The notes beneath the pieces are model-generated. The model was not told the origin of the DNA. It saw nothing but the letters and a program-made list of their open reading frames with translations, and made no database searches. Source: a virus. Taken from it: a stretch of DNA of 42,178 nucleotides. The position numbers were made by a program, and so were the translations under genes. Positions 2,805 through 23,186 of the stretch are shown in pieces. Position 1 is the stretch's first letter. Every line of letters begins with the position of its first letter. The DNA lies in IMG/VR virus record IMGVR_UViG_3300032315_001292, positions 1-42,178 of that record, one strand, 5' to 3'.

Positions 2805-3209
2805 TCAATCTTTCTCAAAAGATTTCGATAGTGCCTGTCTTAATGCCGAGCTAAATTCAGTTCGTTCGAACGGTAATTTATCATCTTGAAGTTGTAATAT
2901 AGTAGAAGAAACTGAGGTTTTGTTAGTTCCCTCCCCAATATATTCTTTACCATCCATCGTGATTTTGGTTTTAACAATTGTTTTTTTCTGTTTAAACTCA
3001 AATGGTCCTACTCTTATCCCCTTTGTCGGAGCTTCTATAGACAAAATTTCTACAGTGACAGGTCTCCCGTTTTCACATAGACTATAATTTTCATTTACAA
3101 GTTCTGTTACAATTTGTTTTGCTCCATAAGTTAATTTTGTATCAGGAACTCCGTTCATATGTGCAAAAGTTATTACACTTGATATAAAATAACACACTAA
3201 TGTATCCAT
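2805..3209 (-). CDS. Small exported hypothetical protein, last gene of the envelope operon
   Basis: This is a 134-residue protein. Its first 20 residues (MDTLVCYFISSVITFAHM) are hydrophobic and look like a weak signal or anchor. The rest is a predicted beta-rich domain (VTVEILSIEAPTKGI, VGPFEFKQKKTIVKTKIT, DGKEYIGEG) ending in an amphipathic helix (FSSALRQALSKS). The gene starts 2 bases beyond the stop of the PA14 gene and closes the minus-strand operon that includes the CsgG-like lipoprotein. I do not recognise the family. A periplasmic partner of the CsgG-like protein is possible from the context only. Confidence 0.6.
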   Translation of the reverse strand: MDTLVCYFISSVITFAHMNGVPDTKLTYGAKQIVTELVNENYSLCENGRPVTVEILSIEAPTKGIRVGPFEFKQKKTIVKTKITMDGKEYIGEGTNKTSVSSTILQLQDDKLPFERTEFSSALRQALSKSFEKD

Positions 3210-3211
3210 AA

Positions 3212-4357
3212 TTAATAATTTAAATTTGATTGATTGGTAAAACCAGGAGAAAGAATATAAAGATTAGTAATACCACCTGAACTTGGTGTAAATGTGTAAG
3301 TATTTTGTACTCCAGGAATAGATGTTCTTAAATCTGCAGATCCTGTATTCAAACTATCCCATTGTGATTCTGTAAACAACAAAGTTCTTTTTGTATAATT
3401 TAATCCGTTTATTCTTTTTGATATAGTATAAATATCATTTATTGTAATAAGATTATCACCACTAACCTCATATTTGTGATAATGATATGATTTGATTGGT
3501 GTTCTTTGTAAAACAATATCGTCAATTCCTACAAAATCAGCAGAGGATAAGTTTGACGTTGTGATTGGTATAACAACTTCAATATACCATTCATCCCCAT
3601 TTGATACTGATTGTGAAAATGAATATTGTCCCGAAGTATTTGTTGTAGATGTAGTTTGTTGAGTCCAAGGAGTAAAAGTAGATGCTAAAATACCTAATTC
3701 CGATGTTTGTAGAGAATGTGTAGATTGTCCTGGCCTTCTCCAAACTACAGTTAACCCATCACCACCACCATATTCTTGCATTCTTGCTCTGAACGTATAT
3801 TGAGTCCCTGCGACTAAATTTATATTTCCATAAATTGGTCCACTCATTCCGTGTCCACCATAATAACTAACCACAAATGTTCCACCAATAAATAAATCAC
3901 TACCATCATCAGAATTTATTCCAAAAGAATAGGTCCCAGTTACAACAGGTATAAAAGTTCCTGTAACTTCAACTGAATAGTATTCTCCATTATTTGGAAC
4001 TGTCGCTCCAGCATTTCTAATTGTTGTATATGTTGTAAAATTTAAACATGTAGTTGTTGATAATGTTCCTGACCATCTAAGTTGTGTATTTGAAAACGAA
4101 GTATTAAACAATCTATCAAATTCTAGTGTATTGGTTGGATATTGACCATATTGGGACGTACTACCATTTCCATTATGTGTTGAAAATATCTTAACATTAA
4201 GATTATTTGATAATGTGTTTATTGTCCCTCGTTTATACAATTTAGATGTTATATTTGGAACAGGAATATCATTTTCAGTTCTAATTGAACCTGAATGTGT
4301 AAATGTCTGTCCAAATATTGATATGGGTAATAATAAAAATAGTATTAATTTTTTCAC
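3212..4357 (-). CDS. Secreted PA14-domain protein (GTG start)
   Basis: About 381 residues when started at GTG 4357, whose GTGA overlaps the stop of the upstream gene. This start puts KKLILFLLLPISIFGQ at the N-terminus as a Sec signal peptide, whereas an ATG 33 bases further upstream would bury it behind a charged extension. Residues about 95-200 form a PA14-type domain: EYYSVEVTGTFIPVVTGTY, then FGINSDDGSDLFIGG, then YTFRARMQEYGGGDGLTV. PA14 domains bind carbohydrates in many adhesins and glycosidases. The C-terminal half is a beta-rich region with no recognised domain. I infer an exported surface or periplasmic carbohydrate-binding protein, either for virion entry or for changing the surface of the infected cell. 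Confidence 0.8.
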   Translation of the reverse strand: MKKLILFLLLPISIFGQTFTHSGSIRTENDIPVPNITSKLYKRGTINTLSNNLNVKIFSTHNGNGSTSQYGQYPTNTLEFDRLFNTSFSNTQLRWSGTLSTTTCLNFTTYTTIRNAGATVPNNGEYYSVEVTGTFIPVVTGTYSFGINSDDGSDLFIGGTFVVSYYGGHGMSGPIYGNINLVAGTQYTFRARMQEYGGGDGLTVVWRRPGQSTHSLQTSELGILASTFTPWTQQTTSTTNTSGQYSFSQSVSNGDEWYIEVVIPITTSNLSSADFVGIDDIVLQRTPIKSYHYHKYEVSGDNLITINDIYTISKRINGLNYTKRTLLFTESQWDSLNTGSADLRTSIPGVQNTYTFTPSSGGITNLYILSPGFTNQSNLNY

Positions 4358-5556
4358 AACAAAATTTTTGTTCCGGTTAAAACTTGCCAATTTTGAAAAC
4401 TTTGATTCAGTTGGTATACACCTGAAAAACTAACAGTCCATTTAAATTTATCTGTAACTTTAAAATCTGTATTTACCATAGGTATAATCAAAAATCCACT
4501 TTTATACCACTGACCAGCATAAAAGAAAATATATGGAGAATATACACCTAACCCTAAAAAATTCAACCCTATTGATTTACCCCCTTTAAAGTTGGTAAAT
4601 CCCCCACCTATTAAAGACCAATTACGAAAATCATTCTTATTGATTTGTCCAGTCGTATAAGTTGTTCCTCCCATCAAAGTAACCTTGTTTAACTTTTGAG
4701 CATTTAACAAAGATGCCGTCAAAAACCAATCAGTATTAAAATTTGTCATAAATGAAGTGGAGAATATTCCCATATACCTTTTGTATTTCAATGATCCATA
4801 CCCAGATAAATTTAAAATGTTTTGACCCGTCTGATAGTTAATGTTTATTCCTTTGATAAAGGTCTGTTCCGTGTTTATGTGTGTTAGTGACGTGTTAAAC
4901 CTAAAATTATCATTTCCACTTTTTGTAATATTAGAATCATTTCTTATTATAACAATATCTCCAGTAGCAATTAAAGCACCATTAGATACTTTAGAAGAAC
5001 TTTTACCACCACCTCCACCATTATTTTCACTCTCACCACCACTTGCAATTTGTTGGTTTTTATCATCGGCTGTTGTTATTTCACTACCACCTTCGGATGA
5101 GCTGTTGTTATTATCATTATTAGACCCACTACCGCTATTTCTCGGTGGAGGTGGAGGTGTAGGTATATTACCAACAGAACTTCCAATAGAACTAGCCATA
5201 GAGACCACAGATGTAATATTAACCACTGCGTTTGCGGTAACACTACCTAAAAAATTAGATACGTTGTTGGACGTTTCTACACCTTCTGAGGCACATGGAT
5301 TAGCACCTAAAGGTAAAGCGTCCTTGATTCCTTGAACCCATAGATTGTATGCACCAGCGTCTAACTCTGCGTATGTGAAAGACCTAAATTGTCCCGCATA
5401 AAACATAGTAACACTAGAACTTTGAGTTTCAAGTTGTACTGACTCAGTCTTTCCGTTACAAGGGTTAATATAAAAATAGGTGAAATTTTGAGCGTGAGTT
5501 CCCAAAATTCCACCTAATAAAAAGATGAATAGAAATAAAATTTTTTTACCAACCAT
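4354..5556 (-). CDS. Exported protein with Gly/Ser/Pro linker and barrel-like C-terminal half
   Basis: A 400-residue protein starting at an ATG that overlaps the last 11 bases of the CsgG-like gene. An N-terminal Sec signal (KKILFLFIFLLGGILGTHAQ) is followed by a domain with a Cys pair (NPCNGK, NPCASEG). Residues about 133-190 are low-complexity, with a run of five prolines and then Asn/Ser/Gly. The C-terminal half consists of alternating polar/hydrophobic strands (YGSLKYKRYMGIFSTSFMTN, WSLIGGGFTNFKGGKSIGLN) and ends in strand-like WQVLTGTKILL, consistent with an outer-membrane barrel or barrel-like fold. I do not recognise a family. In curli systems CsgG works with small exported partners, and this gene sits where such a partner would be. 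Confidence 0.7.
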   Translation of the reverse strand: MVGKKILFLFIFLLGGILGTHAQNFTYFYINPCNGKTESVQLETQSSSVTMFYAGQFRSFTYAELDAGAYNLWVQGIKDALPLGANPCASEGVETSNNVSNFLGSVTANAVVNITSVVSMASSIGSSVGNIPTPPPPPRNSGSGSNNDNNNSSSEGGSEITTADDKNQQIASGGESENNGGGGGKSSSKVSNGALIATGDIVIIRNDSNITKSGNDNFRFNTSLTHINTEQTFIKGININYQTGQNILNLSGYGSLKYKRYMGIFSTSFMTNFNTDWFLTASLLNAQKLNKVTLMGGTTYTTGQINKNDFRNWSLIGGGFTNFKGGKSIGLNFLGLGVYSPYIFFYAGQWYKSGFLIIPMVNTDFKVTDKFKWTVSFSGVYQLNQSFQNWQVLTGTKILL

Positions 5557-6238
5557 TTTGCTCTAGACGCTTTACAAGGTTCATCGTAGCGACCTCTAAA
5601 GCTTTCTGAGTAGCAATACCAACGGTTGATTGGTCAAAACCCATTGTTGGATTTTTAAAATAACCCTCACCAAATTGAGTTGATTGACCTTGACCTGATG
5701 CAACTATGTATTGTGAGTTGTCAACTTTTACTAATCTAATTTGAATTCCTATGATGGTTGTATTGGTCTTCTTAGACTTACCCTTATCGTAACTTTCAGC
5801 ATATGATACGGAGAAGTCGTAAATTTCGGCATAAGCGATAAACTTCGGTAATCTAATACCATCTGTTTTAAGTTTTGTTTTACCGTCATCTAAACCTTCA
5901 ATTTTCTTCTCCCATGCATCTAACATTTGATTTACAATTGCATCTTTTTCTTCTGCAAATTCAAATCTGTTAGTGTAAAGTAAGTTCTCAACAATTCTAT
6001 TCGAAACACCTAAACCCAATCTTTTCTCTCTCAATTCAGGAAAACTCTCCCAAAGATCTTTATTGACATTTAATTTAGAAAGTTGCACTGTTTGTTTTTT
6101 ACCAGTGTAAGTAGAAATACTTTCTAGCGTACGATCAGTTTTTTCAAAATCGGCTTGATACTGTTGAGTCGAAATCGTTGATTTACAACCTAACAATAAA
6201 AATAAATTTAGAGTCGAAATAATAATAATTTTTTTCAT
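5546..6238 (-). CDS. csgG-like: CsgG-like outer-membrane lipoprotein
   Basis: A 230-residue lipoprotein: the signal ends in LFLLLGC with Cys18 as the lipidated residue. The body has the CsgG layout, with VQLSKLNVNKDLW near the N-terminus, then helices (LRE.RLGLGVSNRIVENLLYTNRFEFAEEKDAI), then FIAYAEIYDFSVSY and TTIIGIQIRLVKVDN strands, and a C-terminal helix (ATQKALEVATMNLVKRL). CsgG forms the outer-membrane nonameric channel for curli subunits. It is unusual for a phage to carry one next to other exported proteins. The start ATG overlaps the stop of the upstream gene (ATGA). I infer a channel used to export the neighbouring proteins or a lysis or superinfection role. Confidence 0.82.
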   Translation of the reverse strand: MKKIIIISTLNLFLLLGCKSTISTQQYQADFEKTDRTLESISTYTGKKQTVQLSKLNVNKDLWESFPELREKRLGLGVSNRIVENLLYTNRFEFAEEKDAIVNQMLDAWEKKIEGLDDGKTKLKTDGIRLPKFIAYAEIYDFSVSYAESYDKGKSKKTNTTIIGIQIRLVKVDNSQYIVASGQGQSTQFGEGYFKNPTMGFDQSTVGIATQKALEVATMNLVKRLEQNGW

Positions 6239-6630
6239 TCTTCTTCTTCGTTTTCCAACTGTTTAGCTCTCAATCTTTTCATTCTTTCGGCAGGTGTTTC
6301 TTTTTTCTCTTCAGCAGGTACTACCGCAGGTTGTGTTGCTGGTTGAGCTGCTGGAGCAACTTCTCTAATTGTTTCTTTTTCTCTAATTACAGTAGTTCCA
6401 CCTCCACCTGAAGACGCATTACTCTGGTTGTTATTCTCCAAGTTAAGATTAATAACTGGAGCCGCAGCTGGTGCTACTTGTTCGGTTTTAGTTTCTTCAT
6501 TATCACTTCCACCACCAAACAAAATTGTGGAAATCCATACACCCCCACCTGTTACGATAGTGGCAAGTGTTCCTACGATGGTTTTCTTTAAACCACCCCA
6601 AGAGCCATCATTTTCTGTTTCTTCTGACAT
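6235..6630 (-). CDS. Small membrane protein with Pro/Ala-rich tail
   Basis: A 131-residue protein with one hydrophobic helix at residues about 17-40 (TIVGTLATIVTGGGVWISTI), then an Asn/Ser/Gly stretch, an Ala/Pro/Gln-rich region and a charged tail (AERMKRLRAKQLENEEEE). There is no cleavable signal. The stop overlaps the start of the CsgG-like gene by the ATGA overlap, so the two are coupled. The shape (one membrane anchor plus a long flexible Pro-rich tail) resembles inner-membrane spanin-like or TonB-like linkers, but no family motif is present. Confidence 0.65.
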   Translation of the reverse strand: MSEETENDGSWGGLKKTIVGTLATIVTGGGVWISTILFGGGSDNEETKTEQVAPAAAPVINLNLENNNQSNASSGGGGTTVIREKETIREVAPAAQPATQPAVVPAEEKKETPAERMKRLRAKQLENEEEE

Positions 6631-6634
6631 AATT

Positions 6635-8536
6635 TTACTTTTTAATTATTTTATGAATCTTTTGTTTTTCATTGGTTGTTAATCTTACAAAGTAGAAACC
6701 TGGTTTTAAATTACTAACATCTATTTGTCTTGTGACAATTTCATTTTGAGTGACAAATTCCCTGTTTGTAAAGTATAACTTACCTGTGTAATCATAGATT
6801 TCGTAATATAAATATCCCCAATTTGTTTGATAGTAGTCAATACTCAAATTATCATTTACTGGGTTTGGATAAACTCTGAAACCGTTTACTAATTCATTGA
6901 CAAGTTCTCTTGCTCTTCTTCCATTGATAACTGTCGCATCAACAGGTGATGGAATAATATTTAGATCTTCGGCTTTATCGTTACCAGCGGCTTTGTTTGT
7001 GATTTTGATTGGTGATTGTTCCCAATTTGAATTCAAAATATTAAACTTGAAGTTGAACATTTGAGTTGAATTTGTTATTAAAGATGGTGACATTTTTGAC
7101 TCATGTCCTCCCCATAAAATTTCACCTGGTTTTGTGGAAATAAATGAGTTCCAAGAACTTGCCTCAGGACCAACATTAATTTCTGAAAATCTGAAAATAT
7201 TGGGATCGAATTGTAAACCTATTTGTGCCGCGCCAACTTTGTTACCATGAGTAATAAAAGTAACTCCAACGTTTACGGTGTTATCATCAGAGATCGTTAA
7301 TCTAGGTATTCTAAATTGTACTGAGTCTTGAATGTTTTGGTAAATAGTTCCCTCATCCAAAACATAAGAAGTCCCTACACTTGGGTTATTTACTCTTTGA
7401 ATTTGAAATGATAAATTATTTAATCCTGTATTGGTGACATCGCCCAAAACATATCCATAATATGTTATTCCATTAGTACCGTTCAGATTTTGGTCTATCA
7501 ATGTAGTTCCTATAATTCCTGTTTGGAAAATATTGGGATTGGCGATGATGGTATTATATTCATTTGTTGTGTAATATCTTACATTATACTCGTTTGCAAT
7601 AACAGGTGACCAAGATGAACGTCCTGTGGCTAAACGATTGAATATAAGGTAGGCATCAGATACCGATAAATTGCCACTTCTATTTACATCACCTTGTTGG
7701 AATTCATAGGACTGAGCAGTATCCGCATAAATACTCATGTCAGATAAACGGTAAGCATCAGTAATGTTTATAGATGAATTGTCTGATAAAGTGTCCAAAT
7801 TGGAAACTAATTTTATATTATAAAAGGAAGTGTCATATGGGATTTTTATAAGAGCGATACCATTTGTATTGGTTGTGAAACGATCTCCTCTAAAATAAAC
7901 CTGAGACGACTTAAGTTTGAAGTCGTAGGCAAATGGCATTTCAGGAGCTGGTGTACCATCAACATTCAACACTGTAATCGGAATACGAACGGTATCCATT
8001 TTAAATCTTCCACCATAGTTGAAAGTTCCCAAAGTGTTATCAAATCCATTCATTGTTGTTGCTATGTTAGAATAAGAAGGTGTACCCTGAACTCTCAATG
8101 AGTCAACTGAAGATGGATTGAATGTTGATGAATGCGGTAGTAAAATCTCAAAAACAGCTCCATCTGGAAAATCAAATATTGTTTGGTTTCCTGTATAAAT
8201 TGCAGTTGCGTTAACCCAACCAGGTTGTGTATAGTACGAACCATATTTTGTGGAAATTGTACTTACACTCGGACCCCATTTCACAATAGGAGTTTTGAAT
8301 GATTGAGGCGGATAAAAAAACCTTACTTGAAAACCAACATAGTTGGTCGTAGTTGGATTATGATAGTGTAAGTATACGACTGTCGTGTCATTGAGTATAC
8401 TACCCAACGTGAATACAGTATCTATCAAAAAATAAGGTGACGATGAATTGGGAGAAACTAATACTTCGTTTCTCCCATTCTGTCCATATACATTTACAGA
8501 AAGCAATAATAAAAATCCTAAAATTATTTTTTTCAT
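6635..8536 (-). CDS. Secreted protein with cohesin/dockerin-like domains and T9SS C-terminal sorting domain
   Basis: About 633 residues from ATG 8536; a longer frame exists, but this start exposes the signal peptide KKIILGFLLLLSVNVYGQ. Residues about 30-165 and 420-520 look like cohesin-type beta sandwiches (TVNVGVTFITHGNKVGAAQI, LQFDPNIFRFSEINVG). Residues about 282-305 are a dockerin-like calcium repeat (GDVNRSGNLSVSDAYLIF). The last 75 residues are a type A Por/T9SS sorting domain: FRVYPNPVNDNLSIDY, then EIYDYTGKLYF and DVSNLKPGFYFVRLTT, ending KIHKIIKK. Such domains send proteins through the type IX secretion system of Bacteroidota to the cell surface. I infer that the host T9SS exports this phage product during infection. 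Confidence 0.9.
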   Translation of the reverse strand: MKKIILGFLLLLSVNVYGQNGRNEVLVSPNSSSPYFLIDTVFTLGSILNDTTVVYLHYHNPTTTNYVGFQVRFFYPPQSFKTPIVKWGPSVSTISTKYGSYYTQPGWVNATAIYTGNQTIFDFPDGAVFEILLPHSSTFNPSSVDSLRVQGTPSYSNIATTMNGFDNTLGTFNYGGRFKMDTVRIPITVLNVDGTPAPEMPFAYDFKLKSSQVYFRGDRFTTNTNGIALIKIPYDTSFYNIKLVSNLDTLSDNSSINITDAYRLSDMSIYADTAQSYEFQQGDVNRSGNLSVSDAYLIFNRLATGRSSWSPVIANEYNVRYYTTNEYNTIIANPNIFQTGIIGTTLIDQNLNGTNGITYYGYVLGDVTNTGLNNLSFQIQRVNNPSVGTSYVLDEGTIYQNIQDSVQFRIPRLTISDDNTVNVGVTFITHGNKVGAAQIGLQFDPNIFRFSEINVGPEASSWNSFISTKPGEILWGGHESKMSPSLITNSTQMFNFKFNILNSNWEQSPIKITNKAAGNDKAEDLNIIPSPVDATVINGRRARELVNELVNGFRVYPNPVNDNLSIDYYQTNWGYLYYEIYDYTGKLYFTNREFVTQNEIVTRQIDVSNLKPGFYFVRLTTNEKQKIHKIIKK

Positions 8537-8543
8537 AATAGAA

Positions 8544-8894
8544 TCAGTTGACTTCGTTATTGGATGATAAAGAAACACCATCTTCTTCGTCCATTTTTTG
8601 AACTAACATTTTATCTCTATCTTCGTTTGAAAACCAAAAATCAATAACTTTATTCAAGTTACCAACAAAGGCACCTAAAAGAATAAGAAGTAACTCTTTC
8701 CATGCTTCTTCGATCGTTGCTTTAAACATTACTGCCATTACAATACCAAAAACGATAAAGAAAAAGGTAAATAAAATTAATAATGTAATTTTCCAACGAT
8801 TTGATTGCATTTGTTGTAACATAAAATTAAACCTTTGGTCGGGTTGTACATTTTGGAATTCCGTATTGTACAAAAGTGATTTAAATAATCCCAT
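8544..8894 (-). CDS. Two-span membrane protein
   Basis: A 116-residue protein with two hydrophobic helices: ITLLILFTFFFIVFGIVMAV (about residues 36-57) and ELLLILLGAFVGNLNKVIDF (about 67-88). A charged C-terminal tail follows (NEDRDKMLVQKMDEEDG). It lies 7 bases upstream of the T9SS cargo gene start and 1 base downstream of the holin-like gene. The size and topology fit a holin, antiholin or small virion-associated membrane protein. No specific family is recognised. Confidence 0.7.
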   Translation of the reverse strand: MGLFKSLLYNTEFQNVQPDQRFNFMLQQMQSNRWKITLLILFTFFFIVFGIVMAVMFKATIEEAWKELLLILLGAFVGNLNKVIDFWFSNEDRDKMLVQKMDEEDGVSLSSNNEVN

Positions 8895-8895
8895 A

Positions 8896-9129
8896 TTATT
8901 CTGAATTTTTTTTCGTAAAAATTTTATCAGCAGACGCTAGTCCGAGTGCACCAAAAGCCAAAGCGGCTACGGACTGAATTAATGCGGGTGCTGGGGCCAC
9001 ATCAACAGTCGAGAATGAGTTATGGTACATTGTGACGCATAAAGAAATTGCACACATTATTCCAACAAATCTTTTGCTGGAAAATGATCCTTTTTCGTCT
9101 TGGAAAATTTGAGTTAAGAATTTTTTCAT
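8896..9129 (-). CDS. Holin-like small membrane protein
   Basis: About 77 residues from ATG 9129. The longer frame adds 12 residues that cross a TATAAATA box, so I choose the shorter start. KKFLTQIFQDEKGSFSSKRFVG is followed by a hydrophobic helix (IMCAISLCVTMYH) and then a second one (SVAALAFGALGLASADKIF) before a lysine-rich tail. The 'KG..SSKRF.G' lead and two-helix hairpin are typical of small phage holin-like proteins of Bacteroidota and Proteobacteria phages. With the GH19 endolysin it could form the lysis set. Another holin-like gene lies at 29.4 kb. Confidence 0.68.
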   Translation of the reverse strand: MKKFLTQIFQDEKGSFSSKRFVGIMCAISLCVTMYHNSFSTVDVAPAPALIQSVAALAFGALGLASADKIFTKKNSE

Positions 9130-9186
9130 AATCTTGGTCGGTTGTCTATAAATATATCCAACCATTCAAAATTATAGTATTTTACA

Positions 9187-9372
9187 TTAAAATAATTTTT
9201 GAACTTCGACCATAATTTCTCTTTGTTTACCCTCGAAAAACTTTATTTGTTTTTGTTCTTCTAAAGTTTGGTCGAAATTATTACCCTTAATTTGTCTAAT
9301 TTTTTCAGTGAGAAAATCATGTTGTTCTAGCAACCACTGATATCTTTCAGCTTTTCTTTGATTTATATCCAT
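9187..9372 (-). CDS. Small coiled-coil protein
   Basis: A 61-residue, highly charged, helical peptide (RKAERYQWLLEQHDFLTEKIRQ, EEQKQIKFFEGKQREIMVEVQKLF) that would form a coiled coil. It lies 4 bases downstream of the paralogous pair and about 60 bases upstream of the holin-like gene. There is no recognised family; small coiled coils of this kind are common as phage structural or assembly helpers. Confidence 0.6.
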   Translation of the reverse strand: MDINQRKAERYQWLLEQHDFLTEKIRQIKGNNFDQTLEEQKQIKFFEGKQREIMVEVQKLF

Positions 9373-11303: not shown

Positions 11304-11705
11304 ATGATAAATAGTCCAAAAAAAATTTTTATCAGACCTTCACATGGTAAAGGTTTGGGTGTTTTTGCTAGTGAGAGTATATCTCAAGGTGAAACTATCG
11401 AGGATTGTCCTTTGTTATCACTACCGATTAAAAAAGGTGAAAGTTCTAGTCTCTTGTTGGATTACCGATTCAATTATCCTTTAGGTTTAGATTTTGAAGA
11501 ACAAGTTATAGCATTAGGTTACGGTAGTTTGTATAATCATTCAGACACGCCCAATGCAATGTGGATCCATCATCCAAATTTAAAAAAAGTTTTTAGGTTT
11601 GTAGCAATCAAAGAGATTGCCCCAGGTGAAGAAATTTTGGTATTTTACGGAGACGAAACTTATTGGTCTGACGGAAGGATAAGTTCAAGGACTAAATTAG
11701 TTTGA
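11304..11705 (+). CDS. SET-domain protein (candidate lysine methyltransferase)
   Basis: A 133-residue minimal SET domain. It has the N-terminal SET block (SHGKGLGVFASESISQGETI), the pseudoknot core (GYGSLYNHSDTPNA, matching the family NHS.x.PN) and the C-terminal block (EIAPGEEILVFYGDETYW, matching E-I..GEE(I/L)...YG..YW). SET proteins move a methyl group from S-adenosylmethionine to protein lysines. Only the SET core is present, with no pre- or post-SET zinc cluster, as in other viral and bacterial SET proteins. The substrate is unknown. It lies alone on the plus strand between minus-strand genes. Confidence 0.9.
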   Translation: MINSPKKIFIRPSHGKGLGVFASESISQGETIEDCPLLSLPIKKGESSSLLLDYRFNYPLGLDFEEQVIALGYGSLYNHSDTPNAMWIHHPNLKKVFRFVAIKEIAPGEEILVFYGDETYWSDGRISSRTKLV

Positions 11706-14092: not shown

Positions 14093-15364
14093 TCACCCAA
14101 TATCTGATCGTGATGTATACCACCCTCCCATTGGGTAATTGTATGAAGTTAACACGGTACCTTTACCCATTTCTTCTATTTCATTCAAAAGTTTTTCTAG
14201 TTCGTTTATCAATTCGTCAGTTTTACCTGAATTATATTCGATCCTGATTAACTTTTCAGGTTCTCTAGTGTTTGGATTTTTAACGAATTCATTTTTAATT
14301 TTATCATTAGTAATTTGAGAGTCTAAATCACTACCTTTTATTATTGTAAAATGAAAAGCACCATCAATTTCTATAGCTATTTTAGATTTTGGTAAATAAA
14401 AATCAAATTTTAATTTTCTACATCGTCCTTTTAAGTTAGGTTTTCCTATACAATCTTCAAATTCTTTGGGAGAATCAAACTCTATATTTTTATTTTTAAA
14501 ATATTCCTTGACTATATTTTCACCTTTAGACTCATAACATTTTGGACACCCCGATCCACTCAAATGATCTTTGGGCATTACAGACCAAGCACCATGTTTT
14601 GGGCAAACTATTTTAACTTTTGTCTTCGCATCAACATAATCGGTATTTGTGTAGTCATAAATTAATTTTCCTTCTTTTTGATGAATACCTTCTGCAATGA
14701 TTTTATCTAACCAAGTGTACTTAGTATCTCTTCTCCCTCCACAAACTGGACAACCTACTTTTTTATTCGGGTTGACGTGGTTACTAGGTGAAACTGTAAA
14801 ATAACCATGTGGCTCTTCTTCAAAATTATTCAAATTTCCGTCTGGAAAGTTGTTTGATGACACAGGACAAAAAAGTTTGATCGGTGGACTAGTTTTTAGT
14901 TTTCCTAGAAATTTAATTTTATCATAACCCGTATATTTTAAAGTCCCGTCAGGATTTGACTGGTACTTTTTTACTTTTTCCATAAACCTTTCTTTTCTTT
15001 CTTCAGGTGTTTCTTTTTCACATTCTGGACAACCTTTTGGAGGATACGTTTTTCCGTGAGATAACTTTTTATAAAGATGAGAAAATGGAGTACGATAGAA
15101 ATCACCGTGATATGGACACGTAATTTTTATTTTTTTAGTTTTTTCTATCCCATCCCATGTAATAACATTTTCTGCTGGGTAAATATATCGAGGGTTTTTA
15201 TGTATAGTTCTTGCAGTTTGAACAAATTGAGAATACGGTATCTGGGTACTCTCATTTAAAAGATCTATTTTTGATTCCCAATTAATAACTTTTTTTATCA
15301 ATTTAACCAAATCGTTTTCGGTCAATCTGATAATTTTTGGAGAATAATTTGATAAATTTTTCAT
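14093..15364 (-). CDS. Tagged nuclease: zinc-ribbon repeats plus PD-(D/E)XK domain
   Basis: A 423-residue protein. The N-terminus (IIRLTENDLVKLIKKVI) is the same short helix found on other tagged proteins here. Three treble-clef-like repeats follow: ITCPYHGDFYRTPFSHL...GCPEC, LFCPVSSNN...VGCPVCGG and IVCPKHGAWSVMPKDHL...GCPKC. Such repeats bind DNA in homing-type and Vsr-like endonucleases. The C-terminal domain has KGENIVKEYF, then KLKFDFYLPKSKIAIEIDGAFHF, matching the PD-(D/E)XK core (E..., FD, EID). It is therefore probably a DNA endonuclease. The tag suggests it may be carried in the head and delivered with the DNA rather than being an ordinary homing enzyme. Confidence 0.8.
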   Translation of the reverse strand: MKNLSNYSPKIIRLTENDLVKLIKKVINWESKIDLLNESTQIPYSQFVQTARTIHKNPRYIYPAENVITWDGIEKTKKIKITCPYHGDFYRTPFSHLYKKLSHGKTYPPKGCPECEKETPEERKERFMEKVKKYQSNPDGTLKYTGYDKIKFLGKLKTSPPIKLFCPVSSNNFPDGNLNNFEEEPHGYFTVSPSNHVNPNKKVGCPVCGGRRDTKYTWLDKIIAEGIHQKEGKLIYDYTNTDYVDAKTKVKIVCPKHGAWSVMPKDHLSGSGCPKCYESKGENIVKEYFKNKNIEFDSPKEFEDCIGKPNLKGRCRKLKFDFYLPKSKIAIEIDGAFHFTIIKGSDLDSQITNDKIKNEFVKNPNTREPEKLIRIEYNSGKTDELINELEKLLNEIEEMGKGTVLTSYNYPMGGWYTSRSDIG

Positions 15365-18378: not shown

Positions 18379-18463
18379 GCCAGAGTGTTGGAATAGGCAG
18401 ACAAGATTGACTTAAAATTAATTGGGCTAAGCGCTCGTGTGGGTTCGAGTCCCATCTCTGGTA
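18379..18463 (+). tRNA. tRNA-Leu(UAA)
   Basis: Acceptor GCCAGAG/CTCTGGT, a Leu-type D arm, anticodon loop CTTAAAA (UAA) on an ATTGA/TTAAT stem, a long variable arm and T arm GTGGGTTCGAGTCCCAT. All parts are intact, in contrast to the Leu-like element that follows. Confidence 0.93.
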
Positions 18464-18510
18464 CAATATTGGATCCTTCATTGGTTAAACCCAACGGGGT
18501 CCAATATTTT

Positions 18511-18626
18511 AGTCAGGTGGCGGAATGGTAGACGCTAATTTTCAAAATGTGAGGTATAGATACTGGTTAAGTACACGCCGGGAACAGATACAAAATACCA
18601 TACAGGTTCGAATCCTGTCCTGACTA
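18511..18626 (+). ncRNA. tRNA-like RNA, AGTCAGG family, 66-nt insert in place of anticodon arm
   Basis: Acceptor AGTCAGG/CCTGACT, D arm GGCGGAATGGTAGACGC and T arm ACAGGTTCGAATCCTGT are perfect. Bases 18536-18601 replace the anticodon arm. They hold ATTT-TCA-AAAT and GGTA/TACC pairings but no 5 bp stem with a 7-base anticodon loop. This is one of eight such elements. Confidence 0.75.
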
Positions 18627-18687
18627 CTTTTTGGGGGATTGATTTTTTTTGAAGTATGGCTATATTTATAATAAATCCACCGAAAAA

Positions 18688-19029
18688 CCCATCGGTCTTT
18701 AGCCGATGGGATGTAAGGAGTGAATTGACTAAAATAAACCAAATGAAAAACATCCAAATTAAAGGATATAAACAAACATCGTCAGGAACTGACGATTACA
18801 GACGTGGAGATGAAATAAGACCAACTATTGTTGGCACAATCAATGAAGCGTCCAAAATTCTGAACTTAGTTTCAGAAACCCAACCATCTTTAGTGGTTGG
18901 GTAGTTCAAACAAACAAAAGTACGTTATGCTTTCACAAAAACTCTATATCAGTTTTAATCCGTCATGGTTCGATAGAACAGCCATAGGATATGACTTTTA
19001 CGGGTTTGTTTGATATGTACTCCTTACAT
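18688..19029 (+). ncRNA. IS605-derived structured RNA (omega-RNA-like remnant)
   Basis: Two hairpins with the same loop TCTTTAG bracket the element. The first is CCCATCGG/CCGATGGG at 18688-18710. The second, CCCAACCA/TGGTTGGG at 18879-18901, is identical to the right end of the TnpB genes at 37.87 and 41.76 kb. Between them the last 50 codons of TnpB remain. Downstream, two nested inverted repeats (ATGTAAGGAGT with ACTCCTTACAT, 18711-18721/19019-19029; TCAAACAAAC with GTTTGTTTGA, 18906-18915/19004-19013) close a further stem-loop. The 3' part of tnpB plus the right end is where omega RNAs are encoded, so this may be a guide-RNA gene without its nuclease. It is co-transcribed with tRNA-Leu. 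Confidence 0.55.
18755..18904 (+). pseudogene. tnpB: C-terminal remnant of tnpB
   Basis: About 49 codons read KGYKQTSSGTDDYRRGDE, then IRPT.VGTI.EASKILNLVSE, ending QPSLVVG and TAG. They match the C-terminus of the TnpB at the right edge nearly residue for residue. The RuvC and zinc-finger parts are gone, so no nuclease is made. The frame has stayed open, which suggests that RNA sequence is conserved or the loss is recent. Confidence 0.8.
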
Positions 19030-19042
19030 ATGAAAAAAAATT

Positions 19043-19070
19043 AAACCCGAAGAAATTCGGGTTTTTTTTT
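19043..19070 (+). terminator. Intrinsic terminator of the first RNA-array unit
   Basis: A 9 bp stem AAACCCGAA/TTCGGGTTT (19043-19051, 19056-19064) with a GAAA tetraloop and a run of T. It separates the tRNA-Leu/omega-like unit from the main array. Confidence 0.85.
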
Positions 19071-19103
19071 TCGTAAAAAGGATGAAACTAATAAAATCAT
19101 TCG

Positions 19104-19111
19104 TACCTTTG
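19104..19111 (+). promoter_or_regulatory. Promoter -7 element of the main RNA array
   Basis: TACCTTTG matches TAnnTTTG. No good TTTG is seen 19-21 bases upstream, but the element sits between the terminator and the second boxA, as expected for a second array promoter. Confidence 0.5.
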
Positions 19112-19146
19112 TAATGTTGATGGTTGAGAGATCAACAATCACAACT

Positions 19147-19160
19147 TGTTCTTTGACATC
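19147..19160 (+). promoter_or_regulatory. boxA-like antitermination site, second copy
   Basis: TGTTCTTTGACATC, followed by TTGGAAA, closely matches leaders of Bacteroidota rRNA operons. An inverted repeat (GGTTGAGAGATCAACAATC) precedes it. It should allow readthrough of the 5.5 kb untranslated array that follows. Confidence 0.65.
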
Positions 19161-19204
19161 TTGGAAAAAATTGAAATGTTTTGAGTCGTGAGACTTCAAA
19201 ATTT

Positions 19205-19287
19205 AGTCAGGTGGCGCAAATGGTAGACGGTTGGTGCTGGGCAGTGGCTCCTCCAAAGGCATACAGGTTCGAATCCTGTCCTGACGA
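19205..19287 (+). ncRNA. tRNA-like RNA, AGTCAGG family, 32-nt middle without anticodon stem
   Basis: It has the length of a normal tRNA-Leu (83 nt) and the family acceptor and T arm, but the bases where the anticodon stem should be do not pair at all. The acceptor ends CCTGACG (one mismatch) and the D stem has one mismatch. Confidence 0.65.
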
Positions 19288-19307
19288 CAATTACAAAAAC
19301 TAATAAT

Positions 19308-19407
19308 TTCTCCAACCAATGAAATATAGTGTAGTTATCATTGGACAAATGCTTGAAATAGCATTCAACGTTGATAGGGTGTGTATTAAGTTTTACACCT
19401 AGGAGAA
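19308..19407 (+). ncRNA. Cloverleaf-like structured spacer RNA
   Basis: A terminal helix TTCTCC/GGAGAA (19308-19313, 19402-19407) encloses three hairpins: CCAATG/CATTGG (19316-19344), AATGCT/AGCATT (19348-19365) and GGTGT/ACACC (19378-19399). This is a four-way junction of tRNA size without any tRNA consensus bases. It ends 5 bases before tRNA-Gln. Confidence 0.5.
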
Positions 19408-19412
19408 GGAAC

Positions 19413-19483
19413 TGTCCCCTCGTCTAACGGCAGGACAGCAGACTTTGATTCTGCTTATCGAGGTTCGAATCCTTGGGGGACAA
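19413..19483 (+). tRNA. tRNA-Gln(UUG)
   Basis: Acceptor TGTCCCC/GGGGACA, D arm with CTAACGGCAGG, anticodon loop CTTTGAT on GCAGA/TCTGC, T loop TTCGAAT. Confidence 0.92.
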
Positions 19484-19496
19484 CATAAAAAAATAT

Positions 19497-19592
19497 AGTC
19501 AGGTGGCGGAATGGTAGACGCATCGAAAGATAGGTACGGTATGGAGCCCGATTAAATAATCCTAATTACAGGTTCGAATCCTGTCCTGACTA
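19497..19592 (+). ncRNA. tRNA-like RNA, AGTCAGG family, 46-nt insert
   Basis: Family acceptor, D arm and T arm are perfect. The insert 19522-19567 starts with an ATC-GAAA-GAT tetraloop hairpin and has TAGG/CCTA pairing; no anticodon arm. Confidence 0.75.
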
Positions 19593-19594
19593 CC

Positions 19595-19679
19595 AAAGAA
19601 ACAAGTAAAACGCAAACGCACAGTCCCTTGATGCATCAGGTGAGGCACACACTGTATACTGGATGACCTCTGTTTCTTT
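19595..19679 (+). ncRNA. Structured spacer RNA with 9 bp terminal helix
   Basis: AAAGAAACA (19595-19603) pairs with TGTTTCTTT (19671-19679). Inside are ACAGT/ACTGT (19620-19655) and a TGATGCATCA palindrome. A T run follows. Confidence 0.45.
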
Positions 19680-19686
19680 TTTAATC

Positions 19687-19805
19687 AGTCAGGTGGCGGA
19701 ATGGTAGACGCTAAGAGTTTCTTTAATGAGGTGGTCCTAGAGTAGCTGACACACTTAGATACAACAAGGTAACTACTCGCACAGGTTCGAATCCTGTCCT
19801 GACTA
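19687..19805 (+). ncRNA. tRNA-like RNA, AGTCAGG family, 69-nt insert
   Basis: Family acceptor, D arm and T arm are perfect. The insert 19712-19780 contains GAGTAG/CTACTC closing a 27-nt loop; no anticodon stem-loop. Confidence 0.75.
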
Positions 19806-19810
19806 CAAAT

Positions 19811-19852
19811 CTTAGGAGTAATTAACCTAAGACTGAGAGGTTATAAACTCTC
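19811..19852 (+). ncRNA. Two adjacent hairpins between tRNA-like genes
   Basis: CTTAGG/CCTAAG (19811-19831) and GAGAG/CTCTC (19835-19852). They may act as processing signals. Confidence 0.35.
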
Positions 19853-19855
19853 GAT

Positions 19856-19968
19856 TGGCTATGGTGTAATGGAGCACAGAGAAACTGAGTATGAAAGGGA
19901 TTACGGGAATCTTCCCGCAAACATCAGAAATGGGACTCAGGATTATGGTTCGAATCCATTTTAGTCAA
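19856..19968 (+). ncRNA. tRNA-like RNA of a second acceptor type, long insert
   Basis: Acceptor TGGCTAT pairs with TTAGTCA (six of seven, one G-U). The D arm is GTG/CAC with TAATGGAG and the T arm is TATGGTTCGAATCCATT. In place of the anticodon arm is an insert of about 65 nt with CTGAGT/ACTCAG closing it and a GGGAA/TTCCC hairpin inside. It shows that the insert feature is not limited to one acceptor family. Confidence 0.6.
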
Positions 19969-19989
19969 CAAGCCGTCTTTTTTTCTTGT

Positions 19990-20050
19990 CTACCGTGGAC
20001 GTGGATTGTTGAGACGTAAAAGTAACAATCGATTGATTAGGGAACGGTAG
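19990..20050 (+). ncRNA. Structured spacer RNA (nested hairpin)
   Basis: CTACCGT/ACGGTAG (19990-19996, 20044-20050) encloses GATTGTT/AACAATC (20004-20010, 20024-20030). Flanking T runs are at 19977 and 20080. Confidence 0.45.
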
Positions 20051-20138
20051 GATACAGGTTCACTAGACGAAGGTAGAAGTTTTTTTTTGATAGATGGGTT
20101 TGAGTTCTTTATAACAACAAACCAACTATAATTCAGTA

Positions 20139-20169
20139 GGGACAAATGGGAGCGGCTTACTCCCGTCCC
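20139..20169 (+). ncRNA. Nested GC-rich hairpin
   Basis: GGGAC/GTCCC and GGGAG/CTCCC stack with an AAAT bulge, 6 bases before the next tRNA-like element. The bases 20051-20138 before it hold a T9 run and no clear gene. Confidence 0.45.
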
Positions 20170-20174
20170 GAAAT

Positions 20175-20277
20175 AGTCAGGAGCCCATTGGTTGGGGGCA
20201 CCTCCCCAAGGTTGAGTAACAGGTGATGCTGACTCTTTATGGTAAAGCCGAAACAGGTTCGAATCCTGTCCTGACTG
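20175..20277 (+). ncRNA. tRNA-like RNA, AGTCAGG family, divergent D region
   Basis: Acceptor and T arm match the family exactly, but the D arm is replaced too. A TTGGGG/CCCCAA hairpin (20192-20209) and CTTTA/TAAAG lie in the 71-nt middle. Only the acceptor-T domain of a tRNA is kept. Confidence 0.65.
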
Positions 20278-20279
20278 CA

Positions 20280-20416
20280 AAGACAATGGTTTTCCCCATT
20301 CAACGGATGTCGACAATCTAGAATGGAATCGGAATTCAGCACCCTCAGCCGAGGCCTCGTAAAACTACGATTAAGCTGTTAAGATTGGAGAGAGACGGGT
20401 ACTCCATCATTGTCTT
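20280..20416 (+). ncRNA. Structured spacer RNA with 9 bp terminal helix and internal branches
   Basis: AAGACAATG (20280-20288) pairs with CATTGTCTT (20408-20416). Inside, CAGC/GCTG encloses CCTC-AGCC-GAGG and CGTA-AAAC-TACG hairpins. It ends 4 bases before tRNA-Glu. Confidence 0.5.
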
Positions 20417-20420
20417 ATTT

Positions 20421-20492
20421 GGTCGGTTCATCTAGAGGTTAGGATACAAGATTTTCATTCTTGTCACATGGGTTCGATTCCCATACCGACTA
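20421..20492 (+). tRNA. tRNA-Glu(UUC)
   Basis: Acceptor GGTCGGT/ACCGACT, anticodon loop TTTTCAT on CAAGA/TCTTG, T arm CATGGGTTCGATTCCCA. Confidence 0.93.
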
Positions 20493-20494
20493 CC

Positions 20495-20564
20495 TTGGAG
20501 GTATAGGGGTAAACCCTTGAGGCGAAGTACAAGCCATAGTCACTGAACGTAAACTGACCTCCAA
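20495..20564 (+). ncRNA. Structured spacer RNA with 8 bp terminal helix
   Basis: TTGGAGGT (20495-20502) pairs with ACCTCCAA (20557-20564). GGG/CCC and AGT/ACT hairpins lie inside. Confidence 0.45.
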
Positions 20565-20568
20565 ACTA

Positions 20569-20654
20569 ATTAGAAGTGTCGCAATACGCGTTTCAATCTA
20601 ATTGATAGACGTATCAATGAAGATGTTCGAGGGTGAAAATCCCAAGCTTCTAAT
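20569..20654 (+). ncRNA. Cloverleaf-like structured spacer RNA
   Basis: ATTAGAAG (20569-20576) pairs with CTTCTAAT (20647-20654). Inside, in tRNA order: CGC-AATAC-GCG (20580-20590), TTGATA-GACG-TATCAA (20602-20617) and GGG-TGAAAAT-CCC (20631-20643) with a 7-base loop in the T-arm position. The usual GG and TTCRA consensus bases are absent. Confidence 0.5.
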
Positions 20655-20657
20655 CCT

Positions 20658-20892
20658 CCATTCTTAGTGTTATGTGGTAAAACACGTTGACTCTTACATC
20701 GCCTGGAGTGCTACAAATAAAAATGTGAGCTGTATTGAAATAGCCAGTTATAAGCCAACATAAAGTCGTTGGGTACAGACGGAGTAATTAACCAGAGTAT
20801 AGGCAGGAACTGTGACGATATAGCAAATACCCATTTGAGTATCCACTCCCGAATGTAAGACGAGTAAGTTGGTTCGAACCCAGCAGAATGGA
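20658..20892 (+). ncRNA. Giant tRNA-like RNA (235 nt) with about 170-nt insert
   Basis: Acceptor CCATTCT/AGAATGG is perfect; bases 8-9 are TA; D arm GTGT/ACAC holds TGTGGT; T arm GTTGG-TTCGAAC-CCAGC is good. Where the anticodon arm should be, CTTACAT (20693-20699) pairs with ATGTAAG (20853-20859). GGAGTG/CACTCC continue the helix inward around about 130 nt. It is far longer than any tRNA and lacks the tag-reading frame expected of tmRNA. Confidence 0.6.
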
Positions 20893-21105
20893 CAATGAGT
20901 AAGAGATACTCAGAGTCTTTGGTCTAAGACTTAAACAATAGACCCGCTTAAACTGGACAGCGGAACGCCAGTTCTTAGGGTCAAAGGACCAATCACAGCT
21001 CCTCCTTCGTAGTGTGACTTTTTTAATAGGGGATGCCCTGTAGGTTTCATCAATAGGAAAAAACCGGAATGACTACTCACTTGGAATCTCAGAGTGGGGA
21101 AACAC
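20893..21105 (+). other. Hairpin-rich spacer with possible weak terminator
   Basis: Contains AGTCTT/AAGACT (20914-20931), GACCC/GGGTC (20941-20982) enclosing AACTGG/CCAGTT, and TCACA/TGTGA (20993-21017) followed by a T6 run that could be a weak terminator. The last 20 bases repeat as the leader of the 24.3 kb element (GAATCTCAGAGT, then GGGAAA). No coding frame is convincing. Confidence 0.4.
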
Positions 21106-21190
21106 AGTCAGGTGGCGGAATGGATAGACGCGGCCCTATCAGGGGTAGAGGCGAAAGAAACTCATACAGGTTCGAATCCTGTCCTGACTA
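21106..21190 (+). ncRNA. tRNA-like RNA, AGTCAGG family, 34-nt middle
   Basis: Family acceptor, D and T arms are present. The middle has CAG behind U33, as a tRNA-Leu(CAG) would. However, CCCT-ATC-AGGG folds the anticodon into a stem and the canonical anticodon stem does not form, so it may be a decayed tRNA-Leu close to the ancestor of the family. Confidence 0.65.
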
Positions 21191-21436
21191 CACAGTGTTG
21201 GCTACAATCACCGAGTAGGGTAGTACACTTAAATAAAACAAGAACGGGGAAAACACCGAATCTGCAGATAACGGCGAAGTACCAACGAACGGTGTAATGG
21301 AATCAATTCAATACCTCTACGTGGTGGTTCTAGAAACATTCTTTGGAATGGCTAAATTGAAAAAGTTACATGGGTCGCTGGCAGAGTTGGTCTATTACAT
21401 CTGTATTGTTTTATACATTTCTTTATATTTATATCT
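21191..21436 (+). other. Spacer with tRNA-Ser-like 5' half interrupted by a homing endonuclease
   Basis: CACCG and CGGTG at about 21210 and 21288 could close another structured RNA. At 21372-21408 GGGTCGC, TG, GCAGAGTTGGTCTATTACA and CTGTATTG read like the 5' half of a Ser-type tRNA, but no matching 3' half follows before the endonuclease gene. A T arm with acceptor end lies on the other side at 22216-22240. Confidence 0.4.
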
Positions 21437-22156
21437 ATGGAAATATGTTCGTATGGTTGTGGTAAAGAAGCTAGATTCTTTTTTAAGACTGGAAATAAAT
21501 GTTGTGAAAAATCGCCTAATTCTTGTGAAAGCAAAAGGAATAAAGATTCTGAAAAGAAAAAAGGAAAATTTAAAGGAACACCATATTGGCAATTACCTGA
21601 AGACAAAAGAAAATTACCCTTTATACCTTGGAATAAAGGTAAAGTTGGGGTTTATACCGAAGAATACAGAAAAAAAATTAGTAATTCTTTAAAAGGAAGA
21701 ACTGATATTGGTAGAGCATCTACAGATGAAAAAGAAACCGAAAGAAAGAAAAAAATATCAGAAACAATGAAAAAAAATCCATTATGTGGAGGTTTAAGAA
21801 AATGTGGTGGTAGAGGAAAAAAAGGTAGATATAAAGGATATTGGTGTGATAGTAGTTGGGAATTGGCTTGGGTTATTTATAATTTAGAACACAATATCAA
21901 ATTTGAAAGAAACAATATTGGTTTTGAATATGAATATAAAGGACAAAAAAGAAAATATTATCCTGATTTTTTAATAACAGAAAACTATTATGAAATAAAA
22001 GGTAGGAGAAGTTTCGAAAAACTTGATGCTGTAAATAAAGAAAAAATTAGACAATTTAAGTTTAATCTAAAAGTCTTATATGAGAAGGATATGAAACCAT
22101 ATCTAACTTATGTTATAGAAAAATACGGAAAAGATTATACTAAATTGTATGAATAA
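21437..22156 (+). CDS. Homing endonuclease with NUMOD3-like repeats and PD-(D/E)XK-like domain
   Basis: A 239-residue basic protein inside the RNA array. The N-terminus is a zinc-binding segment (CSYGCGKEARFFFK...CCEKSPNSC). Residues about 72-115 hold two NUMOD3-type repeats (YTEEYRKKISNSLKGR, KKKISETMKKNP). The C-terminal domain has GYWCDSSWELAWVIY, then YEYKGQKRKYYPDFLITENY, then YEIKGRR; the E...PDF...EIK pattern is the PD-(D/E)XK nuclease core used by some phage homing endonucleases. It is flanked by tRNA-like half-genes, as if it had landed in a tRNA gene. A self-splicing intron around it was looked for but not established. Confidence 0.85.
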   Translation: MEICSYGCGKEARFFFKTGNKCCEKSPNSCESKRNKDSEKKKGKFKGTPYWQLPEDKRKLPFIPWNKGKVGVYTEEYRKKISNSLKGRTDIGRASTDEKETERKKKISETMKKNPLCGGLRKCGGRGKKGRYKGYWCDSSWELAWVIYNLEHNIKFERNNIGFEYEYKGQKRKYYPDFLITENYYEIKGRRSFEKLDAVNKEKIRQFKFNLKVLYEKDMKPYLTYVIEKYGKDYTKLYE

Positions 22157-22184
22157 AGAGAATATCCGAATGAACAAGGGTTCC

Positions 22185-22241
22185 AACTTAAAATCAGTTG
22201 GGTAGTAAAAGCTCCGTGAGTTCGAATCTCATTCCTTCCTC
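22185..22241 (+). pseudogene. 3' fragment of a tRNA (Leu/Ser type)
   Basis: CCAAC-TTAAAATCA-GTTGG resembles an anticodon arm with UAA, followed by a variable arm and T arm GTGAGTTCGAATCTCAT and TCCTTCC. No matching acceptor 5' strand (GGAAGGA) precedes it, so it is a fragment, possibly the 3' exon of the gene split by the endonuclease. Confidence 0.45.
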
Positions 22242-22248
22242 ACATTAT

Positions 22249-22321
22249 GCTCTCGTGGCGCAACGGTTAGCGCAAGATGCTTATACCATCGAGGTTACAG
22301 GTTCAAATCCTGTCGGGAGTA
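22249..22321 (+). tRNA. tRNA-Ile(UAU)
   Basis: Acceptor GCTCTCG/CGGGAGT, D arm GCGCAACGGTTAGCGC, anticodon loop CTTATAC (UAU), T arm ACAGGTTCAAATCCTGT. The anticodon stem has one mismatch at its base. Confidence 0.88.
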
Positions 22322-22326
22322 CAAAA

Positions 22327-22400
22327 GACCTCATAGCTTAATTGGTAAAGCACCTGGCTTTTAACCAGGGGAGTCCAGAGTTCGAGTCTCGGTGGGGTCA
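22327..22400 (+). tRNA. tRNA-Lys(UUU)
   Basis: Acceptor GACCTCA/TGGGGTC, anticodon loop CTTTTAA on CCTGG/CCAGG, T loop TTCGAGT. Confidence 0.93.
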
Positions 22401-22402
22401 CT

Positions 22403-22491
22403 ACAAAGGAAACTAAACCTACTACATAGGGTGAAGATATCTAAGGTCGTGATGTAGATGTCGACTTAAAGTTATTTGTTGTTTCTTTTGT
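22403..22491 (+). ncRNA. Structured spacer RNA with 11 bp terminal helix
   Basis: ACAAAGGAAAC (22403-22413) pairs with GTTTCTTTTGT (22481-22491, one G-U). CTACAT/ATGTAG (22422-22457) lies inside. Confidence 0.45.
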
Positions 22492-22496
22492 TTTAT

Positions 22497-22578
22497 GCCG
22501 ATGTGGTGAAATAGGTAGCCACGCTAGTTTTAGGCACTAGTGTCTAACGACGTGAAGGTTCGAGTCCTTTCATCGGTA
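22497..22578 (+). tRNA. tRNA-Leu(UAG)
   Basis: Acceptor GCCGATG/CATCGGT, anticodon loop TTTAGGC on CTAGT/ACTAG, long variable arm, T loop TTCGAGT. Confidence 0.93.
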
Positions 22579-22585
22579 CAAACAT

Positions 22586-22660
22586 ACATCCTTAGCTCAG
22601 TTGGTTCAGAGCATTTGCCTTACAAGCAAAGGGTCGGAGGTTCAAATCCTTCAGGGTGTA
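22586..22660 (+). tRNA. tRNA-Val(UAC)
   Basis: Acceptor ACATCCT/AGGGTGT, D arm GCTCAGTTGGTTCAGAGC, anticodon loop CTTACAA on TTTGC/GCAAA. Confidence 0.93.
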
Positions 22661-22664
22661 CATT

Positions 22665-22739
22665 GGTGAGATAGCGCAGATGGTCAGTTCGCACTGGACT
22701 GAAAATCCAGGGATATCGGTTCGAGTCCGATTCTCACCA
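22665..22739 (+). tRNA. tRNA-Phe(GAA)
   Basis: Acceptor GGTGAGA/TCTCACC, anticodon loop CTGAAAA on CTGGA/TCCAG, T arm ATCGGTTCGAGTCCGAT. Confidence 0.93.
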
Positions 22740-22745
22740 CACAAT

Positions 22746-22831: not shown

Positions 22832-22834
22832 CAT

Positions 22835-22908: not shown

Positions 22909-22913
22909 CATTT

Positions 22914-22984: not shown

Positions 22985-23029
22985 CAAAAAAAAGTGGGTG
23001 TGTTGAAACCTAACTAGTAGTGGAGAATA

Positions 23030-23104: not shown

Positions 23105-23108
23105 CAAT

Positions 23109-23179: not shown

Positions 23180-23186
23180 CCAAAAT

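Follow-up and report, generated by a model that had tools for sequence, protein, structure and literature searches.

The stretch of DNA analysed here, called the window below, is the IMG/VR virus record IMGVR_UViG_3300032315_001292, which is 42,178 bases long. Between positions 2805 and 9372 it holds nine minus-strand open reading frames (ORFs) with mostly exported products, numbered g1 to g9 by position. Six of these, in the order g6-g5-g4-g3-slot-g1, make up a module that recurs in dozens of IMG/VR contigs; the slot is taken by an exchangeable gene, which in the window is g2. The module may serve to display lectins on the surface of the infected cell, a reading that is put forward tentatively. 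Judging from a type IX secretion system (T9SS) sorting domain in g6 and from relatives in a Flavobacterium phage, the window would come from a phage of Bacteroidota.

All module genes lie on the minus strand. g6 (6635 to 8536) encodes a signal peptide, a dockerin-like loop, a cohesin and a T9SS type A C-terminal sorting domain. g5 (6235 to 6630) has a probable inner-membrane anchor near its N-terminus, followed by a linker rich in Ala, Pro, Gln and Asn, and its end overlaps the start of g4 (5546 to 6238) in an ATGA. g4 is a protein of 230 residues, predicted from its modelled structure and a lipobox-like site to be a CsgG-fold lipoprotein. It shares 11 bases (5546 to 5556) with g3 (4354 to 5556), which consists of a signal peptide, a small N-terminal domain, a Gly/Ser linker and a predicted C-terminal outer-membrane barrel. 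A GTGA joins g3 to g2 (3212 to 4357), which has a signal peptide, a PA14 domain, and a conserved C-terminal part of 155 residues that includes a degenerate dockerin-like loop. The last gene is g1 (2805 to 3209), with 134 residues.

Two starts probably differ from those in the mechanical ORF list. For g6 the most likely start is ATG 8536, not 8581, and for g2 it is GTG 4357, not TTG 4390; both yield a clean signal peptide. Most of g1 to g6 carry a signal peptide, a lipobox or a hydrophobic N-terminus. Scans for consensus promoters and terminators returned nothing above shuffled sequence, and for this reason no transcription unit is claimed. Searches of Pfam, PHROGs and NCBIfam gave no meaningful match for g1, g3, g4, g5, g7, g8 or g9.

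The original prediction had described all nine genes as one envelope-remodelling module that includes a CsgG-like channel. The genes and their overlaps are present as it claimed. Its suggestion that gene order be surveyed in relatives also bore fruit: when viral contigs are scanned with g4, 46 loci emerge, and 79 with an alignment-based scan (many on the same contigs); nearly all of them have the genes in the order g6-g5-g4-g3-(slot)-g1. This recurrence is far beyond chance. It does not extend to all nine genes, however. The small protein g7 (8544 to 8894), which has two hydrophobic, presumably transmembrane, segments, and the small holin-like membrane protein g8 (8896 to 9129, alternative start 9165) shift position or are absent in relatives; for example, the relatives L112 and L113 have g7 between g6 and g5, and L124 has it between g5 and g4. 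The slot is variable, and the charged 61-residue g9 (9187 to 9372) is matched only in the closest relatives, L001 to L005, and is at most a candidate member of the conserved module.

One isolate also has the module. In Flavobacterium phage vB_FspM_immuto_2-6A (immuto below) it corresponds to gp013 to gp019, with identities of 28 to 40%, all annotated as hypothetical or by domain. There the slot gene stands in front, and g6 is split into a dockerin-like protein and a cohesin-T9SS protein; these are two separate secreted proteins (L047, NC_055915.1:11598-13422). At the sensitivity of a pattern-seeded scan, no relative of g4 or g3 was found among bacteria and archaea (84,980 genomes, one per species). 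No description of the module was found in the literature searched. Several lineages have an extra signal-peptide protein of about 270 residues, ending in YDF, between g3 and the slot gene (L068:12155-12979 and relatives); it is possibly a second outer-membrane barrel.

The fold of g4 is that of CsgG, as far as a model can tell. Neither a six-frame search of the window nor any of 23 g4 members gives a match to Pfam CsgG (PF03783), and a sequence search of the PDB with the g4 profile returned nothing. An AlphaFold2 model built from 23 relatives (mean predicted local distance difference test, pLDDT, 66; core 70-85) nevertheless has CsgG for all of its best 25 matches in the PDB (Foldseek, E 1e-8 to 1e-6), with a VIA-align Z of 13-14 over 169-185 residues. 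The next structural matches are FlgT, PelC, LptE and PqiC, at Z 8-10.5. In addition, a profile of ten CsgGs aligns with the g4 profile over 188 columns at E 5e-4; 60 column-shuffled controls gave 0.02 or worse, and the reversed profile 0.31. The fold is assigned to g4 on these model matches together with a profile alignment that beats its controls. A lipobox-like site occurs in 50 of 54 distinct g4 relatives, including the window, whereas immuto, L112 and L113 lack it; cysteines are confined to the signal/lipobox region. The claim of a CsgG-like lipoprotein thus holds by predicted structure and lipobox, but not by a Pfam match.

The claim of a channel fares worse. The CsgG barrel is built from two hairpins per subunit. 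In g4, the beta3-beta4 segment has 30-34 residues, against 38-39 in ten CsgGs (8 shorter), and the segment between beta4 and the last helix (alpha3) has 35-37, against 48-50 (14 shorter). The model has no return strand in this second segment. Because the barrel-forming segments are shortened, a channel is not supported, and this indirect evidence leans instead towards a PelC- or LptE-like protein without a barrel of its own.

It could still be asked if the module is a curli (type VIII) secretion system of the pelagimyophage kind that has degenerated, with g4 as its CsgG pore. The fold itself, with CsgG as its best match, and the weak profile alignment to true CsgG (E 5e-4 against a best of 0.02 in shuffles) speak for this. 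The absence of a Pfam CsgG match in every member, the short barrel segments and a separate barrel gene next door speak against it, as does the lack of any Pfam match to CsgF or curlin repeats in the module and slot proteins scanned. Such a curli system is improbable.

The neighbouring barrel is g3. Behind its signal peptide come a small domain in which two cysteines are conserved, a Gly/Ser linker that ranges from about 100 to more than 200 residues, and the barrel region. The AlphaFold2 model places twelve strands at the C-terminus, with a mean pLDDT of 55 and about 65-75 in the barrel strands. Its best matches in the PDB are all outer-membrane barrels, including autotransporter translocators, CymA, CdiB and PelB (Z 12.2). 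The prediction for g3 is therefore a barrel of 12 strands in the outer membrane, which agrees, with moderate confidence, with its earlier description as barrel-like.

g1 is a second, divergent homologue of g4, newly recognised here from profile comparison. Compared with the g4 family (hhalign), it gives E 8e-9, where 60 column-shuffled controls were no better than 0.04 and the reversed profile gave 0.5. With shallow alignments this comparison is not significant; it becomes so only with a diverse set, which was then checked with the shuffled and reversed controls. Against the true CsgG profile g1 is not significant. A signal peptide is seen in distant relatives of g1. Since g1 is homologous to g4, the module would hold two members of the CsgG/anticodon-binding-like fold in addition to one barrel. 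g5 is probably anchored in the inner membrane. Its hydrophobic stretch falls under a simple transmembrane threshold, and what follows is a low-complexity linker by inspection. There is no cysteine in any of 48 distinct g5 relatives.

The two remaining proteins of the module carry recognisable domains. In g6, Por_Secre_tail matches at E 2e-14 (54 bits, cut-off 27) and TIGR04183 at E 3e-12 (46 bits, cut-off 23), which by its sorting domain makes it a putative T9SS type A cargo, as predicted. The cohesin is also above its cut-off (E 3e-6, 27.8 bits against 24.1; 36.7 in the immuto counterpart). Dockerin_1 is not (E 0.07, 13.8 bits against 22.9; the best relative, L116, reaches 17.0). The dockerin loop motif is nevertheless present in 47 of 55 g6 relatives, where shuffles give 0.13, and in 12 of 40 slot proteins.

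The slot protein has constant ends and an exchanged middle, which can be PA14, a C-type lectin, laminin-G (with pentraxin), Ig_7 or GEVED. In the window, Pfam PA14 matches g2 at E 8e-13, so that this part of the earlier description stands. g2 and its counterpart in L080, which has a C-type lectin, are 57% identical over their first 42 and last 155 residues. No T9SS domain occurs in the slot proteins scanned. The original prediction had passed over this domain-swapping slot, and likewise the kinship of g1 and g4, the cohesin and dockerin-like parts of g6 and the holin and endolysin genes that travel with the module.

A secreted-looking Endonuclease_NS gene follows the slot gene in L119, inside the module (L119:13396-13983, with a signal-peptide-like start), and precedes it in immuto (gp012, L047:9935-10513). 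For a phage, a nuclease that acts in the periplasm or outside the cell would be unusual.

Swappable glycan-binding domains are what superinfection exclusion or receptor masking might call for. The surface would be altered or covered so that further phages fail to bind or inject, and the secreted nuclease of L119 and immuto would destroy incoming DNA. The window's own module has no nuclease, however, and no receptor has been identified. The nearby lysis genes also suggest late expression, when exclusion counts less. As the main function, exclusion is thus quite unlikely. Nutrient uptake was set aside, as there is no SusC/SusD-like gene.

The module often sits close to lysis genes. In the window, an endolysin gene lies nearby on the plus strand (899 to 1735), with PG_binding_1 and Glyco_hydro_19 domains and a match to PHROG 181 endolysin at E 6e-69. 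Neighbourhoods were counted in 17 representative lineages that have at least 8 kb on either side of the module, with near meaning within 5 kb. In 11 of the 17, a relative of this GH19 endolysin is near the module, and 11 likewise have a holin-like gene near it; in L068 and L115 the latter is inside the module. g8 is homologous (E 4e-9, 3e-7) to proteins with two transmembrane segments directly before the GH19 endolysins of L114 and L116, which upholds its earlier description as holin-like. The co-location is frequent, not universal, because in immuto about 28 kb separate the module from the annotated endolysin-holin pair, which lies at 43.7-44.8 kb.

This gives rise to the main rival explanation, an outer-membrane lysis module. 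Here g5 and g4 would bridge the envelope like an i-spanin and an o-spanin and, together with g3 and the exported proteins, would breach the outer membrane once holin and endolysin have done their part. A probable inner-membrane anchor and an outer-membrane lipoprotein, encoded by genes with an ATGA overlap and frequent lysis neighbours, fit this, and the Bacteroidota phages B124-14, P2559S and P2559Y are listed without a recognisable spanin (PMC6139136). The details fit less well. g5 has no cysteine, its periplasmic part is low-complexity and not obviously coiled-coil, and g4 is large and globular. In immuto, L112 and L113 the lipobox is missing, and the distance of the immuto lysis pair has been noted. 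Swappable lectins are also not needed for lysis. On balance the lysis explanation is unlikely, though it is the strongest of the rivals.

Immuto is also informative about the virion. Its module is at 10.5-16.4 kb, and its annotated tail, baseplate and head genes are at 82-160 kb. PA14 domains are known in phage tail proteins, so the module proteins could conceivably be virion components, that is, tail or baseplate adhesins. Signal peptides, lipobox and T9SS domain would, however, direct the proteins out of the cytoplasm, which is where virions form. The module proteins are probably not virion structure, and the adhesin explanation is very improbable. Neither virion proteomics nor a published description of immuto was found in the literature searched. 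Of the original prediction, the envelope-directed exported module survives, given its conservation and its export signals; the CsgG-like channel is not supported.

These parts are most economically read as a display system with an exchangeable sugar-binding part. Specifically, the module may be a trans-envelope surface-display system of the infected flavobacterial cell, showing exchangeable lectins; we favour this, while rating it as somewhat short of an even chance. Its parts would span the inner membrane (g5, g7), the periplasm and outer membrane (g4, g1, g3) and the surface (g6 and the slot protein). g4, and probably g1 too, would be CsgG-fold proteins that sit on the periplasmic face of the outer membrane and work with the separate barrel g3, on the plan of PelC-PelB or LptE-LptD and not on that of the CsgG pore. 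g5 would probably tie this complex to the inner membrane. The slot protein would be exported by Sec and then reach the cell surface through the complex, where the T9SS-exported scaffold g6 could retain it through a cohesin-dockerin contact. Which glycan is bound would depend on the exchangeable lectin, which perhaps blocks re-adsorption or superinfection, or keeps cells together. The module probably acts late in infection, since it is co-located with holin and endolysin in most lineages.

Several points weigh against this display reading. The complex of g4, g1, g3 and g5 is inferred, and so is the passage of the slot protein across the outer membrane. Model confidence is modest, as the mean pLDDT values for g4 (66) and g3 (55) indicate. 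The dockerin is below the Pfam cut-off, its loop is present in a minority of slot proteins, and the loop in g2 is degenerate. Finally, the frequent holin and endolysin neighbours fit a role in lysis as well or better.

A fuller version of the display reading would be an outer-membrane machine that large Bacteroidota phages make for themselves: two CsgG-fold proteins, a barrel, an inner-membrane tether and lectins held by a T9SS-anchored cohesin scaffold, the whole coupled to lysis. This is possible, if doubtful. Only as part of this fuller version, and with the same doubt, would the module, which has no assigned role and no matching bacterial block (g4 and g3 having been searched), be a kind of phage envelope device new to the literature searched.

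If the module works at the outer membrane as proposed, it would give a second, independent example of phages putting a CsgG-fold apparatus into that membrane of the host, with a full set of recognisable partners. It bears on the purpose of phage-encoded CsgG-like proteins, and on how Bacteroidota phages, several of them without a recognised spanin, handle the outer membrane when infection ends. The lectin slot, with its natural swaps, lends itself to testing which surface sugar counts in these infections. Immuto, growing on Flavobacterium strain LMO8, is an isolate that carries the module and is usable for testing.

The window has other features as well. Two otherwise different minus-strand proteins (31180-31899 and 32578-33819) have near-identical leaders (IKLTESELVDIINKVLNE, IKLDESDLLKIINKVLSE). 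These are 2 matches where shuffles lead one to expect 0.05; similar starts occur elsewhere, for example at 14093-15364, and the shared leader could be a common targeting or processing signal. The second protein also resembles a peptidoglycan-binding and L,D-transpeptidase-type protein. On the plus strand, 11304-11705 encodes a small SET-domain-like protein, a possible protein methyltransferase, and 18379-24687 holds 24 clustered tRNA genes, interrupted by a nuclease-like ORF (21437-22156). There are TnpB-like (IS605-type) genes at 36700-37896 (plus) and 41757-42155 (minus), the second apparently partial.

Phage-encoded CsgG is not new. The original prediction had likened g4 to the CsgG of other large phages, which is misleading. 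Pelagibacter phage HTVC008M and Melnitz have genuine curli-type loci (PMC7029224, PMC9004378), in which a true CsgG, 37-40% identical to that of E. coli, is found alongside CsgF and curlin-related genes; g4 is no such protein. These loci are only distant analogues of the module. Like them, it is phage-encoded and has a proposed surface role, and like curli in general it has a predicted CsgG fold in an outer-membrane lipoprotein. Unlike them, it has shortened hairpin segments, a separate barrel, no CsgF or curlin that could be found, and a place often beside lysis genes, with T9SS cargo and lectins instead of amyloid.

In PelC-PelB and LptE-LptD, too, a lipoprotein that broadly shares this fold is paired with a barrel of its own gene, and the models agree with this: g4 has Z 9-10 to PelC and LptE, and g3 has its match to PelB. 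The likeness is so far one of predicted structure. g3 differs in having 12 strands and a long linker, and in lacking a TPR or jellyroll part.

With Rz/Rz1 two-component spanins the module shares a possible inner-membrane protein and an outer-membrane lipoprotein, from overlapping genes that are often near holin and endolysin. It differs in its globular CsgG-fold lipoprotein, the lack of an obvious coiled coil and the larger conserved set of genes. About 96% of the known two-component spanins have periplasmic cysteines (PMC6139136); g5 and g4 appear to lack them, and the lipobox of g4 is not universal, so these strict features of spanins are not borne out.

Cryophage has single, variable genes whose products carry T9SS type A sorting domains, and PA14 is present in one of these (PMC7468147). 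Both cases have phage-borne sorting domains, PA14 and variable positions, but here the module is ordered, and the sorting domain is on g6, not on the lectin. Cellulosome scaffolds, lastly, likewise combine a cohesin, here above the Pfam cut-off, with dockerin-type calcium loops in neighbouring proteins. Unlike in a cellulosome, the dockerins are below the cut-off, there are no enzymes, and the genes are carried by a phage; binding between cohesin and dockerin is in this case a prediction.

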